This document shows positions 2,297 to 51,081 of a stretch of 64,000 nucleotides of DNA, piece by piece. The stretch comes from Terriglobus saanensis SP1PR4. Its GTDB lineage: Bacteria > Acidobacteriota > Terriglobia > Terriglobales > Acidobacteriaceae. The notes beneath the pieces are model-generated. The model was not told the DNA's origin. It was given only the letters and a program-made list of their open reading frames with translations, and did not search any database. Position numbers and translations under genes: made by a program. The stretch spans positions 1,488,001-1,552,000 of the forward strand of contig NC_014963.1 of NCBI RefSeq assembly GCF_000179915.2, written 5' to 3'. The stretch's first letter is position 1. Each line of letters begins with the position of its first letter.

Positions 2297-5200
2297 ATGA
2301 AATGTAATCACCGGACCTGTGCGCACGCACGCAACTTCGTTCGCCGTACGGGTCTTTCCAGCGTTCTTCGCATCACGCTCCTTCTCTTTTTCGTAAGTTC
2401 AGGAGCGGCGTCGCTTCTGGCGCAAGGAGGCAGCGCGACGCTGAGTGGAACGATCGTCGACTCAGCGGGTGCTGCTGTCCCGTCGGCCCACGTCACCGTG
2501 ACGAATGTCGATACGAACTTGTCGCTGCCCGCTGACGCGAATACCTCGGGGCTGTATCGTTTTCCCTCACTCCCTCCGGGCAATTACACCCTAAAGGTGG
2601 AGCAGAAGGGCTTTCAAGGATTTCAACAAACCGGCATTGTTCTAACGGTCAGCCAGCAGGCAACGCTGGATGTTGCTCTGAAGATTGGTAGTGAGTCGGA
2701 GACCGTCAACGTAAGCGCCGACGCGGCCCTCATCAACGCCACGAACGCAGAAGTCAGCAACACGGTAGGCGAACGCGCGATCCGGGAGCTTCCGCTCAAT
2801 GGACGCGATCCTTCCAGTCTGGTTCTTCTCTCGCCGGGTACGGTCAACATCCTGAACACGGGTGGTGGAACACAGCAGGGAGAAACCACTTTTCCAAATG
2901 AATCCGGTGCCTCCGCAGGCGGGGGACGGCAGGGAAGCACCCTCTATCTTCTCGACGGCGTGCCGAACATGGACACCTACATGCTTCTCGCAGCACCCTC
3001 TCCGAACGCCGATGCCACAAGCGAATTCCGCGTCATCTCGAATAACTTCGACGCGCACTACGGATTTTCTCCAGGCGCCATCGTCAGTATCGATACCAAG
3101 AGCGGAACCAACTCTCTCCATGGTGGAGCCTTTGAGTTTCTCCGCAACAGCGCGTTGAATTCGGCGAACTACTTCTCCAAGCAGGTCGACCCGCTCAAGC
3201 GCAACCAGTTCGGTGGCTTCCTGGGCGGTCCCATCATGAAGAACAAGCTCTTCCTCTTCGGCAACTACCAGGGAACGCGCCAGACCTCCACTGCCACGGC
3301 GAACAGCGCCAACACGCCGACCCAGGCCATGTTGAATGGCGACTTCAGCGCTTATCCCACCACGCTCGGCGGACCCTTCACGACAATCAATGGCAAGAAA
3401 AATCAGGTCAGCCCAACTCTCTTCGATCCTGCGTCGGTCAAGATCGCAACCACTGCCTTGCCGCTCGGCCAGGATCCCGCGAGTGGTCTTATTTATTTCC
3501 AAAGTCCCGCATCGAAAGAAACCTTCGACGAAGGTACCGGGCGACTGGACTACACGATCAACGATCGCCAGCGTCTGACTATTCGCAGTTTTAACCAGTA
3601 TTACAACCGCTCAGAAGGTGCGACACCGGGTAACATCCTTTCGGTCAACGCGGGCAAGCAGGGGAAGTACTTCAATGAAGTGCTGAACCACACCTGGACG
3701 ATCACTCCCAGCACAGTGAATGCGCTCTCACTCTTCTGGAATCAGATGCACGTCTTTAACGTCGGCACGCAGCGTGACTCCTCTGGTAACGCCTTCTGTC
3801 TCTCGAAGTACATCAACGTGACGGAGGTGCCTGGCACCTGTTACACCGAAGGCTTCAGTGTGACCGGAGGATTTTCCGGACCATACAACGAGTACACGGG
3901 CGAGATGCGCCACTCCTTCGGCTTCTCCGATTACCTTACAAAGACGATCGGCAATCACACGCTCTCCGCTGGCGCTGACCTCTGGCGGCAGTCCGCGCGC
4001 GAGTTGACTTACTATCCTTCAGACCCCATCGTTGCTTTCAATGGCTACTACACGGGCTTCGGCCTCGCAGATTTCCTTCTTGGCAAGGTCGGTTCTTTCC
4101 AGCAGGGTGCTGGCGAAATTGCAGATGTCACCGGAACGTTGCTCGGTGCCTATGTGCAGGACCAGTTCCGTCTTCGTCCAAACCTGACGATCACAGCGGG
4201 GCTTCGCTGGGATCCAAATCTTGCACCGAAGTCCAAGGCTGGACGTGGCTCTGTCTGGGTTCCAGGGCAGCAGAGCACGATGTTCCCCGGCGCTCCCGCA
4301 GGTCTTCTTTTCCCCGGTGATCCCGGAGTTCCAGATTCGCTGGTGCGGAACAGCTACGGATACTTCGAACCGCGTATCGCCGTCGCTCTCCAGGCCACTC
4401 CAAGGATGGCGATCCGTGCAGGCTTCGGCATGTTCACGGCCCCGCTGCCCTATTCCATCTACAACCACGTTGCAGATATCAGCCCCTTCAGCCCGACTTA
4501 CACCTTCTACGGCAGCAGCACGCAGGACATCCAGTTTTCTAACCCATGGGCCACCTTTACGCCCACCGGTGGTGTCAGTCCCTTTCCTCCGTTCGCGTAC
4601 AGCCTGACTCCACCGCCATCCAACTTTAATTTCGGAAGTCAGACGACCGTTCCCGCTACCTTCTTGCCGAACTTCAAACTCGGCATGACGCAAAGCTGGA
4701 ATCTCTCCATCGAACAGCAGTTCACAAACTCTCTCGTGGCGCATATGGCCTATGTTGGCAGCGAGTCTTACCATCAGACCACTGCAATCGATAGCAATCC
4801 TGGCCAGATTCAAGCAAATGTCCGCGGCGTCCGTCCGAATGCTGAGTTCGGGCAGGTGTTGACCACGACCAGCCTCGGCACCAGCAACTATCACTCACTT
4901 CAACTGCAGATGGAAAAGCGCATGTCTCACGGCTTCCAGATCCAGTCCAGCTTCACCTGGTCCAAGACGATTGATCTTGGCTCTTCAGGAAATGTGACCT
5001 TCGGAAGCCCCGCGCTCGCGAACCCCTACGATGTGGGTTACAACCGCGGCGTCTCCGATCTTAGCTTCCCCTTCGTCTCGGTGACCAACGGTGTCTACAC
5101 TACGCCCGCTCTGCGCGGTTGGAATCCGCTGATGCGTGGTGCTCTTGGTGAGTGGGAGATTTCGGCGATCTACACGCTTCAGTCGGGACGTCCGTTCGGT

Positions 5201-30278: not shown

Positions 30279-30518
30279 GGGTGCCCTTTACATCGCGCTT
30301 TCGCGATGTGTGGGCTATGCGCGAAGCGCGGTGCAGGAAAGATTGCGCGGGAACCTCACTTTGTCATCCCCCTGGCATTGCGATCTGCTTTCCGTCTAGT
30401 GCCCCATTCTTTCGCGCTCTTGCGAAAGGGTGGGGTCGCGCGGAGCGCACAAGCAGATCTCACCCGGGAAAAGAGACCGGTGGCTGGGTGCCCATACATC
30501 GCGTCCTTGCGATGTGGG
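30279..30518. repeat. Cluster of three palindromic REP-like hairpins
   Basis: Two related units start GGGTGCCC and centre on ACATCGC/GCGATGT stems (30290-30309 and 30496-30515), each followed by GGGCTAT and GCGAAG. Between them is a different hairpin, 30402-30434, pairing CCCCA..CTTTCGC with GCGAAAG..TGGGG. The repeated head and tail sequence shows that the first and third are copies of one element. No protein is encoded. Such intergenic palindromes are frequent in Terriglobia genomes as far as I recall. Confidence 0.7.
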
Positions 30519-30629
30519 CTATTTGCGAAGTACATCCCGTTTCAGTCTCGGTTTGCAGGAAAAGAAAGGAAATGATCGTACTCTTACCGAGCCTATAGAA
30601 AGTACCTGGCGCTAGATAAGCAGAGCAAA

Positions 30630-30708: not shown

Positions 30709-30722
30709 AATAGGACCTGCCA

Positions 30723-31346
30723 ATGTTCGAGAAGCGGATAACACATTCTGAGCTTAGTGCTTATCGAGTAGTTCGCGCGCAAAGTGAGTACGATCTCGAA
30801 AGAATCGCTGCCGCTCAGATAGCGATCTGGAACGACAGATGGAAAAGGAAGCAAGAAGCTGACCGCAATCGTGAATCACGGACCAACAGCCTAAAGGCGC
30901 GTGCTTTGAACGCCACTCAAGCGGCCACAGCTAAATCGCTTGCACTTGAACAAACTAGGGAGCTTGAGGCTGAACGGAATTATCTTGAAAACCTACTGCA
31001 ACCAGCTCTTTCCCGTGATGCCCGAGTTGATTGGGAAGTAAAGAAGACACATGTGAAGTTTCCAGTTTCCCGGCCTTCACCGTCTCAAGCCATCCCTTTA
31101 CCAAACCTTCCAGATCAGACGAACTTTGTATATAACCCGAGCCCTATCCAACCGAAATTCAACTTCATAGACAGAATCTTAACTAATCGAAAATTGAAGA
31201 AGATCGAAGAGGTCGAAAAGCTGAATGCTGATGCTATAGCCAAGGCAAAGGCAGCCTTCGATGTTGCGCTGCAGGTCTGGAGTGAAAAAAAGAAGCGGTC
31301 GAGACAGCCAACCTTGAACTCTCGAAGCGTTTTGACATCGAGTTGA
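30723..31346 (+). CDS. Mrr-like restriction endonuclease, N-terminal part (frame 0)
   Basis: 207 residues if translation stays in frame. It is charged and mostly coiled coil (AQSEYDLERIAAAQIAIWND, EKLNADAIAKAKAAFDVALQ) with a Pro-rich break in the middle. This matches the N-terminal coiled coil of a large single-chain restriction endonuclease family with a C-terminal Mrr catalytic domain. The frame ends in about 18 residues of out-of-register sequence after an A AAA AAG heptamer at 31286-31292, while the neighbouring -1 frame continues the coiled coil without a break. Either ribosomes shift, or one A has been lost from the run. The G+C content here is visibly lower than in the flanking genes. 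Confidence 0.75.
   Translation: MFEKRITHSELSAYRVVRAQSEYDLERIAAAQIAIWNDRWKRKQEADRNRESRTNSLKARALNATQAATAKSLALEQTRELEAERNYLENLLQPALSRDARVDWEVKKTHVKFPVSRPSPSQAIPLPNLPDQTNFVYNPSPIQPKFNFIDRILTNRKLKKIEEVEKLNADAIAKAKAAFDVALQVWSEKKKRSRQPTLNSRSVLTSS
31286..31325 (+). other. Candidate -1 programmed frameshift signal (A AAA AAG plus stem-loop)
   Basis: The heptamer 31286-31292 is A AAA AAG read in the zero frame as AAA AAG, the slippery sequence of E. coli dnaX. AGGT (31273-31276) lies about 10 nt upstream, like the stimulatory Shine-Dalgarno of dnaX. Six nt downstream, TCGAGA (31299-31304) can pair with TCTCGA (31320-31325) across a 15-nt loop; this 6-bp stem is weak. Confidence 0.45.
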
Positions 31347-32446
31347 AGCGCTGGGACTTGCAGAAGAGCGAATTCGAAACGCAGCAAGAGGCGAGAAACA
31401 AGGAGATAGATTGCCAGCGTTCAGCGTATGAGGCTAAGAATCAAGACGCGATCAATACTTACCTTGAGGAGGTACTGAGTCAGTCGGAATACCCAGACAC
31501 CTTTCCGCAAGAGCACTACTTCGAATACAAGAGCTCAACTGGGAATCTCGTTTTAGACTATGAGCTTCCTAGTAGGGATGTGATGCCGTCAGTGAAGGAT
31601 GTTAAGTATATTGCCAGTCGGTCTGAATTTCAGAAGTCCTTAGTGCCAGATACCTGGGTAAGGAAGACTTACGATGAGATGCTTTATCAGATCGCCCTGC
31701 GCACGTTATACGAGATGTTTCAGAGTGACGCCTGTGACGCCTTGGTCTCGGTGGTTTTCAATGGTTGGGTTCGTTCGGTTGATCGGGCGACGGGGTCACC
31801 CGTACACGCCTGCGTGATGAGCATTGAAGCAAGAAAAGACGAATTTTTGGCTATAAATCTCGATCGTGTAGATCCTAAGGCGTGTTTCAAAAAGCTTAAG
31901 GGCGTTTCGGCTAGCAAATTGATTGAACTCAGTCCTATCAAGCCAATCGTCACTTTGAATAGAGAGGATCGTAGATTCGTAGAAGGGTACGACGTCGCCG
32001 ACTCCTTGGACGAACGAACCAATCTCGCGTCAATGGATTGGATGGATTTCGAAAACCTTATACGCGAAGTTTTTGAAAAAGAATTTAGTAAAGGTGGAGG
32101 AGAGGTCCGCATCACTCAGGCGAGCCGGGATGGAGGGGTCGATGCTGTTGCCTTCGATCCCGATCCCATCAGAGGAGGAAAGATTGTTATTCAGGCAAAG
32201 CGATACACAAACACGGTCGGAGTATCGGCAGTGCGTGACCTTTACGGTACCGTTCACAATGAGGGCGCTAACAAAGGAATATTGGTCACTACATCCGACT
32301 TTGGACCAGACGCTTATGCATTCGCAAAAGACAAGCCTCTTACTCTATTGAGCGGAGCAGAACTACTGTATCTTCTCGGACAGCATGGTCACGCAGCCAA
32401 GATTGACCTTGCGGAAGCGAAGCGGCTCGCAGCTGAGGCACTCTAA
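31292..32446 (+). CDS. Mrr-like restriction endonuclease, catalytic part (frame -1)
   Basis: About 384 residues counted from the shift point; a TTG at 31343 that overlaps the upstream TGA (TTGA) could also start it. The first part finishes the coiled coil (EAVETANLELSKRFDIELKR), then a middle domain (NLVLDYELPSRDVMPSVKD, VVFNGWVRSVDRATGSPV) leads to the Mrr_cat nuclease: DFENLIREVFEKEFSKGGG, SRDGGVDAVAF (Asp codons 32129 and 32141) and VIQAKRYTNTVGVSAVRDL (Gln-x-Lys, codons 32192-32200). All catalytic residues are intact. Mrr nucleases cut modified or foreign DNA. Joined with the upstream part the protein has 574 residues. No methyltransferase gene is adjacent, which fits a type IV-like enzyme. 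Confidence 0.8.
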   Translation, partial: EAVETANLELSKRFDIELKRWDLQKSEFETQQEARNKEIDCQRSAYEAKNQDAINTYLEEVLSQSEYPDTFPQEHYFEYKSSTGNLVLDYELPSRDVMPSVKDVKYIASRSEFQKSLVPDTWVRKTYDEMLYQIALRTLYEMFQSDACDALVSVVFNGWVRSVDRATGSPVHACVMSIEARKDEFLAINLDRVDPKACFKKLKGVSASKLIELSPIKPIVTLNREDRRFVEGYDVADSLDERTNLASMDWMDFENLIREVFEKEFSKGGGEVRITQASRDGGVDAVAFDPDPIRGGKIVIQAKRYTNTVGVSAVRDLYGTVHNEGANKGILVTTSDFGPDAYAFAKDKPLTLLSGAELLYLLGQHGHAAKIDLAEAKRLAAEAL

Positions 32447-49310: not shown

Positions 49311-50495
49311 ATGGGGAATCTTTGCGGGTGGATGTTGGGGTTGGGAATATTGGTGGGGGTGGGGACGCAGCAGTTGAAAGCGGAGGACAAGGCGGTGCCG
49401 CCACCGGCGAAAGCAGAGGATAAAGCGGCAGCTCCCTTACCGGACGTGATTGTTTTTACCAACGGAGATCAGCTCAGTGGGGCCCTGGTCCGCGGCGTGG
49501 GTGATTCCGTCGTCTTCAAGAGCGATATGGCAGGCGAACTGACGATCCCGCTGTCCAAGGTGCGAGAACTGCGGTCGAGCGGCAGTTTTGCCGTCCTGAA
49601 GAAGAACGCTCCCGTATCCCGCGGCGACCTCCATCCCGGAACCCTGGAAGTGACCGATGGAACCGTCGTCGTCGCCAGCCCCATGGGAGCACCGGAGCAG
49701 ATGCCGATTAAAGACGTGGCCTACATCCTGGACCAGACGACTTTTGATCGTGAAGTGGAGAAGAAGGCAGGTCCGCTTTATGGCTGGACGGGCGCTGTGA
49801 ATGCTGGAGCGACGTTTGTTCAATCCACACAGCATGGAGGAACATTCAACGCCGGTCTGACCCTCGCACGCACCGTTCCGACCGTAACTTTCCTGAATCC
49901 ACGGAACCGTACCCTGTTGGATGTCTCAGAAACCTATGGCAAGCTGACAACTCCTACGATCCCACAGACCGAACCGACGCCAACCCCGGATTCCGTGGTG
50001 AAGACGAGTGTCTTCCATGCGGACCTGGAGCGAGATCAGTACTTCACGCAAAGGTTCTATGCGTTGGCCAATACGAGCTTTGACCACAACTTCTCCCAGG
50101 GCCTGCAGTTGCAGAGCGTTTACGGTCTTGGTATCGGTTGGACCCCGATCTCGACTCCAAAGCAGCAGTTGGATGTAAAGGCCGATCTGCACTATGAAGG
50201 CCAGGGATTTCAGGACCCCAGCACGAACCTGGACCTGATCGGTTCCACCCTCGCTGAAACGTATAAGAGAACGCTGCCTCGCAAACTGGTGCTGACAGAG
50301 CAGGCGTCTGTGCTTCCGGCGTGGAATAACTTCAATGCCTATTCTGCGAACGGAAGCATCGGCCTCTCGCTTCCGCTCTTCAAACGCCTGAGCGTCGCGC
50401 TGACGACCACCGACAACTTTATCAACAACCCCAGCACCGGCTACAAAAAGAACAGCTTCCAGTTTGTGACGGGCATTACTTATTCGTTGAAGTAG
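49311..50495 (+). CDS. DUF481 outer-membrane barrel protein
   Basis: 394 residues from the ATG at 49311 (Shine-Dalgarno GGGAAAGGCGAG). The signal peptide is GNLCGWMLGLGILVGVG. An N-terminal beta domain (VIVFTNGDQLSGALVRGVG, TIPLSKVRELRSSGSF) is followed by the DUF481 barrel (LYGWTGAVNAGATFVQST, FHADLERDQYFTQRFY, GLGIGWTPI) and a C-terminal VTGITYSLK. The DUF481 family is salt-stress-linked in E. coli YdiY; its role is unknown. The last 20 nt overlap the convergent cytochrome gene. Confidence 0.87.
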   Translation: MGNLCGWMLGLGILVGVGTQQLKAEDKAVPPPAKAEDKAAAPLPDVIVFTNGDQLSGALVRGVGDSVVFKSDMAGELTIPLSKVRELRSSGSFAVLKKNAPVSRGDLHPGTLEVTDGTVVVASPMGAPEQMPIKDVAYILDQTTFDREVEKKAGPLYGWTGAVNAGATFVQSTQHGGTFNAGLTLARTVPTVTFLNPRNRTLLDVSETYGKLTTPTIPQTEPTPTPDSVVKTSVFHADLERDQYFTQRFYALANTSFDHNFSQGLQLQSVYGLGIGWTPISTPKQQLDVKADLHYEGQGFQDPSTNLDLIGSTLAETYKRTLPRKLVLTEQASVLPAWNNFNAYSANGSIGLSLPLFKRLSVALTTTDNFINNPSTGYKKNSFQFVTGITYSLK

Positions 50496-51081
50496 ACAGG
50501 ATTCTGCGGACGGGATCTGGCAGTTCCAGCGCCGAGCTTTCGAGCAAAAGGCTGAGCTGCCAGATCTGCGTGTCGCTGAGTTGGTCCTTGTAGGCCGGCA
50601 TGCCCTGGTGAGGAAGGCCATTGGCGATGATTTCGTAAACCTGTGCCGACTTCCTGGCAGTAAGGGCATGCGGGTGTTTGCCGTAGAAGAACTGCCCTGC
50701 GGGAGGATTCATCTCCAGCCCTGTGTCTGCGGTCAGGCGTGTGTCACCGTGGCAGGAAGCGCACCGGGCCATGTACGTGTGCGCCCCGCCCTCAAAGACA
50801 TCTTCGCTGGGGCTGAAGGGGGCATCTTTCGCGACGGTAGCCATTTTCTGAGCCAGTTTGCGGGTTGGCGCAGAGGGCTGGGTGATTGGCGCGGTCGCGG
50901 GGAGCGTGCTGGTGCCTGGATGAGGACGATGCAGCAGCGGCGTCAGGACCGAGGTGTAACGGTAGAGCCCGTAAACTGCTCCAAGTGTGAGCACGATTCC
51001 CAGAAGCACACCAAGGAAAACCTTTCCGCCGGAGCTTTTTTTGCCCCGCGAGCGGGAAGAGGTGGATTTTGTTTTGGCCAT
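50476..51081 (-). CDS. Membrane-anchored c-type cytochrome, monoheme
   Basis: 201 residues with AGGAG 7 nt before the ATG. A basic N-terminus (KSTSSRSRGKKSS) and one membrane helix (KVFLGVLLGIVLTLGAVYG) anchor it, then a Pro/Thr-rich linker leads to one cytochrome c domain: heme site CASCH (107-111), distal Met161 in HQGMPAYKD and DTQIWQLSLLL. It carries electrons on the periplasmic face; the partner is unknown. The 3' end overlaps the DUF481 gene by 20 nt. Confidence 0.9.
   Translation of the reverse strand: MAKTKSTSSRSRGKKSSGGKVFLGVLLGIVLTLGAVYGLYRYTSVLTPLLHRPHPGTSTLPATAPITQPSAPTRKLAQKMATVAKDAPFSPSEDVFEGGAHTYMARCASCHGDTRLTADTGLEMNPPAGQFFYGKHPHALTARKSAQVYEIIANGLPHQGMPAYKDQLSDTQIWQLSLLLESSALELPDPVRRILSTSTNK

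Follow-up and report, generated by a model that had tools for sequence, protein, structure and literature searches.

The nuclease locus and its two reading frames

The window analysed here, a stretch of 64,000 nucleotides from Terriglobus saanensis SP1PR4, contains a nuclease locus that is divided between two frames, 30723-31346 and 31286-32446. The first piece closes with 18 out-of-frame codons, the last of which is its stop, and the -1 frame opens directly after TGA 31283-31285 and continues to a stop that ends at 32446. As the two frames overlap by 61 nt, any join between them must fall inside 31286-31346. The features of the locus are the following:

30712-30715, plus strand: AGGA, Shine-Dalgarno-like, 7 nt upstream of ATG 30723
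30723-31346, plus strand: first piece, 207 aa with an ATG start, comprising the N-terminal nuclease part and the first part of the coiled coil
31273-31276, plus strand: AGGT, a weak Shine-Dalgarno-like core 9 nt upstream of the heptamer
31285-31291, plus strand: seven consecutive A, the probable place of a one-base indel
31286-31292, plus strand: heptamer A AAA AAG, in register with the first piece
31286-31346, plus strand: overlap, 61 nt open in both frames
31286-32446, plus strand: second piece, read in the -1 frame and open for 386 codons, comprising the remainder of the coiled coil, a central domain and the Mrr catalytic domain
31299-31325, plus strand: weak 6-bp stem UCGAGA/UCUCGA with a 15-nt loop, its arms at 31299-31304 and 31320-31325, 3' of the heptamer
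32024-32377, plus strand: Mrr_cat (PF04471), full model 1-115, residues 245-362 of the piece read from 31292

The GC content of the nuclease gene is 48.4%, against 57.5% in the whole window. No strong match to the nuclease was found in 18 other genomes of the genus, some of them incomplete, three of which gave remote Mrr-domain matches only, and a nuclease adjoining polA was absent from 10 same-genus stretches, two of them just 6-7 kb long. The gene was probably acquired laterally. A literature search found no published description of the split-nuclease locus of T. saanensis.

Near the locus, at 30395-30540, is an intergenic repeat that occurs dispersed through the genome; its strong hairpin (30399-30460) has a folding energy of -31.4 kcal/mol (z -3.79). 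Counting this one, the genome has at least 42 matches to the repeat (40 of 201 initial candidates were scored), and one copy is located about 100 bases upstream of the dnaX match. Searching the window against Rfam gave no match at gathering scores.

One protein of the Mrr type

Against a profile of five intact homologues, the first piece aligns to positions 1-166 (E 7e-19) and the second to positions 186-558. The break is flanked by two tryptophans: four residues follow the last tryptophan of the first piece up to the end of the heptamer, and 20 precede the first tryptophan of the second. Abutting the pieces gives W-x24-W, and a spacing of 24 is the commonest in the family (18 of 45 homologues, followed by 35 in 13; 46 homologue sequences were examined, of which 45 have both tryptophans, with W169 and W194 of L031:4431-6125 as the reference). 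The profile matches and this spacing bear out the claim of the preliminary description that the two frames form one continuous protein, and its account of the break, which falls on the in-register A AAA AAG with the -1 frame open onward, agrees with the sequence. As judged from the sequence, then, both frames are predicted, beyond chance, to encode one Mrr-type nuclease. The length of the coiled coil between the conserved tryptophans is discrete, being 24, 31, 35 or 42 residues in 41 of the 45 homologues; length steps of 7 and 11 would suit coiled-coil growth by heptads and hendecads.

The second piece matches Pfam Mrr_cat over the full model (E 1.1e-32) and the PADLOC model mREase_IV PDLC03663 (E 4.9e-71). 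The intact homologue L031 covers positions 34-528 of the 544 of PDLC03663, and all 46 homologues submitted, out of 82 full-length ones, match both PDLC03663 and Mrr_cat. All 70 invariant columns covered by the C-terminal piece are kept; the catalytic set of Mrr_cat comprises D and QxK. The gene is predicted to be a type-IV-like Mrr-type restriction nuclease with an N-terminal part, a long coiled coil, a central domain and a C-terminal nuclease domain. It resembles the type IV methyl-directed systems described by mREase_IV PDLC03663 and PF04471 in that its C-terminal piece matches both models, but differs from them in the interrupted reading frame of T. saanensis; its activity and specificity are predictions from sequence. 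Going by the family names, intact members probably cut modified (foreign) DNA. A sequence search of solved structures returned four matches at E 0.5-0.81, which are not meaningful, and an NCBIfam search of the nuclease gave no useful match. Around the homologues, PADLOC matched one of 10 neighbouring ORFs (6 of 7 loci), an AbiLi-like one beside L053, so that the defence context is weak.

Conservation of the reading frame in relatives

With a strong match defined as E at most 1e-60, 10 of 398 genomes in the family besides T. saanensis were strongly matched, each with a single uninterrupted frame 546-642 aa long, versus 386 for the longest open frame at the T. saanensis locus; the profile match spans the break site in all 10. 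In the class, 10 of 399 other genomes were strongly matched (2 already counted in the family) at 11 places, all of them single-frame and 544-846 aa long. Nine of these places, in 8 genomes, are new, and the profile match spans the break site in 8 of them, the ninth (L007) being single-frame with an N-terminal part too divergent for a profile match. Family and class places together are thus single-frame in 19 of 19 cases, 18 of them with a profile match across the site.

A GTDB search found 182 relatives, of which the best 80 were fetched. Seventy-two of these loci run through in one frame; three more (L086, L099, L108) run through with no match to the first 47-60 profile positions, three are broken (L037, L076, L087), and two (L105, L109) are cut by a contig end, L105 stopping short of the break site. 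At the position of the T. saanensis break, 78 of the 79 assessable loci among these best 80 of 182 are unbroken. The ranking by the C-terminal piece favours loci whose C-terminal part is intact, so breaks in that part are under-counted. The viral-contig loci (n = 13) comprise 10 that are full-length and single-frame and 3 partial matches. A plasmid search matched 189 records, 15 of them covering at least 80% of the query; these speak to presence only and stand outside the frame counts. Some loci represent the same contig from two sources (e.g. L002 and L032), and others form look-alike pairs (L040/L079, L049/L136, L093/L138), so all counts are of loci and not of independent events. Some of the nuclease loci from the viral collection (L134-L146) look like chromosomal ones (L136/L049, L138/L093), and the copies in this collection are perhaps prophage-borne or prophage-adjacent.

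The sole locus broken at the site, L076 of Paenibacillus oralis, has its break at about 4988-5050 within the coiled coil. It was considered as a recurrence on account of the same coiled coil and two in-register homopolymers in the overlap, and was rejected because about 40 codons are deleted in comparison with L070 of P. macerans. The break of L087 lies near profile position 45. L037, from the draft assembly of a Desulfobacteraceae MAG, is broken at an A run (about 4787-4850) away from the T. saanensis site, and this run is one base longer or shorter than its counterpart in the intact L044, which indicates that A-run indels do occur in this nuclease family.

A slip-type break at the T. saanensis site was found at no other locus in the 200 relatives, GTDB, viral contigs, family and class. 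The preliminary description had proposed a programmed -1 frameshift or a one-base deletion, and had asked whether the break and heptamer recur. They do not recur in the relatives searched; the frame is continuous in the 19 family and class places and, at the position of the break, in all but one of the assessable GTDB loci. This speaks against the programmed frameshift and for the deletion: with the closest known relatives in one piece, the break looks like an ordinary mutation of recent date or a slip in sequencing, not a control switch. The collections searched held no homologue closer than about 62-64% identity, and the frameshift keeps a small probability for that reason.

The relatives also bear on the suggestion that translation restarts at TTG 31343, within the TTGA overlap, to make a separate nuclease subunit from a second gene. 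The overlap of stop and start does resemble translational coupling; however, the homologues are fused, a restarted product would have its N-terminus midway along the coiled coil, and the TTG has no Shine-Dalgarno-like sequence just upstream, in contrast to ATG 30723 with its AGGA. The restart is weak on these grounds, and two genes are highly implausible.

The slippery heptamer and its surroundings

Under a programmed -1 ribosomal frameshift, translation would mostly yield a 207-aa coiled-coil protein, possibly a restraint on the nuclease, and the nuclease itself would be made in the minority of cases. An in-register heptamer and an open, homologous -1 frame fit this reading, but two of the three registers of any 7-base run yield an X XXY YYZ heptamer by simple arithmetic, so a break on a slippery heptamer is weak evidence; a one-base loss leaving a 7-base run would create an in-register heptamer two times in three, and unless it is conserved such a match carries almost no information. 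The window contains 8 copies of AAAAAAG where 5.5 are expected, a count reached by 19 of 100 shuffles. The same heptamer is in register in the intact polA next door (34548, minus strand), which counts against a programmed event, and in three other long open frames of the window, which are at most putative genes, and it is out of register (offset 1) in ORF 50476-51081.

More favourable to a programmed event is the Shine-Dalgarno-like sequence: of the 8 AAAAAAG in the window, only that of the nuclease gene has such a core within 16 nt, namely the AGGT already listed, with GGAG as a second core in the same interval. Cores of this kind (AGGA, GGAG, GAGG or AGGT) at a spacer of 8-12 nt are found at 6.9% of window positions, and two cores within 16 nt at 4.2%. 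The AGGT and the 6-bp stem are both present as the preliminary description gave them, but the stem is not special. The downstream RNA at 31293-31372 is no more stable than its shuffled versions (z -0.18), and other folds of downstream sequence gave z values of -0.23, -1.28 and +0.46, all computed for structures free of pseudoknots; 21 of 200 shuffles fold as well as the best of the first three (z -1.28). This failure to exceed shuffled sequence counts against programmed frameshifting.

In E. coli, A AAA AAG is among the most slip-prone heptamers, which counts against a plain indel, and heptamers lacking stimulators reach at most about tenfold over a mean background of 0.055%, according to the available part of PMC4066793. 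These unstimulated rates are a further point against a programmed event and, if carried over, would put the leak at the nuclease heptamer below 1%.

Homopolymers of at least 7 were counted in the 82 homologues that span profile positions 10 to 550 (72 of the 80 GTDB loci and 10 of the 13 viral ones), giving 74 in 55.7 kb of N-terminal parts and 15 in 81.2 kb of C-terminal parts. The frequency of such runs in the N-terminal parts speaks for a one-base indel and lessens the weight of the heptamer. That 74 of 89 such runs fall in the N-terminal half of the family is consistent with a phase-variable switch, in which the A run would slip back and forth between generations and turn the nuclease on and off, and a host-harming nuclease would presumably gain from switchability. 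By inspection, however, the runs lie at many different places across the homologues, coiled coils rich in K and E would be expected to produce A runs anyway, and a run of seven is short by the standards of contingency loci. Phase variation is therefore regarded as improbable.

Host translation machinery

A sole lysine tRNA with the UUU anticodon favours slipping on AAG, although it is not strictly required; the T. saanensis genome encodes both tRNA-Lys UUU and tRNA-Lys CUU (L169, L170). The CUU species is expected to reduce slipping on AAG, as stated in the accessible portions of PMC4066793 and PMC5009743, and this weighs against a programmed frameshift. On the other side, the accessible portion of PMC4066793 reports that 46 of 83 species with both lysine tRNAs still hold insertion sequences with such motifs, so the presence of both tRNAs does not appear to preclude frameshifting. 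The frame of the host's own dnaX (L111) contains neither six equal bases in a row nor an X XXY YYZ heptamer in register; the lack of one of the A AAA AAG type in this gene is another point against programmed recoding.

Age and cause of the lesion

In an alignment of 46 homologues, hand-picked from the 82 to limit its size, all 75 invariant columns covered by the two pieces are kept, as are 66 of 70 nearly invariant columns. The rest of the nuclease gene carries no stop codon and no further frameshift, and no invariant residue has been lost, any of which would mark further decay; the lesion is thus either recent or absent from the organism. With the gene intact elsewhere, the absence of decay at conserved residues is also what would be expected of a maintained recoded gene, which favours programmed frameshifting and counts against an indel.

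Homopolymers are the classic error of 454 sequencing, and the gene is otherwise undamaged, as would be seen if the A run had been misread or misassembled and the organism itself had an intact gene. Reads from 454 are indeed in the data: the available text of PMC3570800 describes a finished genome from 454 (39x) and Illumina (180x, for base correction) and counts 99 pseudogenes. The finished state and the base correction speak against such an error, and together with the pseudogenes they make a real mutation likelier; an error in the assembly is unlikely, though a serious contender.

The best explanation, with a probability of about 0.85, is an ordinary single nuclease gene that recently gained or lost one base, the A run being the simplest place for it; this figure includes the assembly error and phase variation as sub-cases. 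The event would be a slip in the A run, representing a mutation of the strain or, less likely, an error of assembly. Following a real indel, ribosomes would start at ATG 30723 and, after the A run, terminate at 31346, giving the 207-aa fragment devoid of the nuclease; a few of them may shift into the -1 frame at A AAA AAG and yield the full-length enzyme, by accident and not by design. Production of the nuclease would be abolished or almost abolished by the indel, apart from the traces of enzyme that leaky slippage may supply.

Comparison with recoded genes and meaning

The dnaX gene of E. coli has the same in-register heptamer, a Shine-Dalgarno-like core at a similar distance, going by the known distance of that core to the heptamer in dnaX, and a downstream stem. 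The T. saanensis nuclease differs from it in having no conservation, no significant structure and a host with two lysine tRNAs. Furthermore, the shift in dnaX ends a shorter product, whereas the nuclease could be completed only by way of a shift. A closer likeness may lie in corrective or leaky frameshifting over homopolymer indels, as presented in the accessible part of PMC5009743, in which a one-base indel in a run is possibly compensated in few translations; the nuclease shares the one-base run indel, with the difference that its compensated product is only putative.

For annotation, the locus is best treated as one broken or mis-sequenced defence gene, not as two genes and not as recoding, and as such it has little wider import. 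A lineage-specific form of recoding is conceivable, and improbable, in which leaky -1 slippage following the indel would keep a dangerous nuclease at trace level, with the coiled-coil fragment binding and restraining it. If true, trace-level expression of this kind would offer a simple means of dosing a nuclease that endangers its own host.
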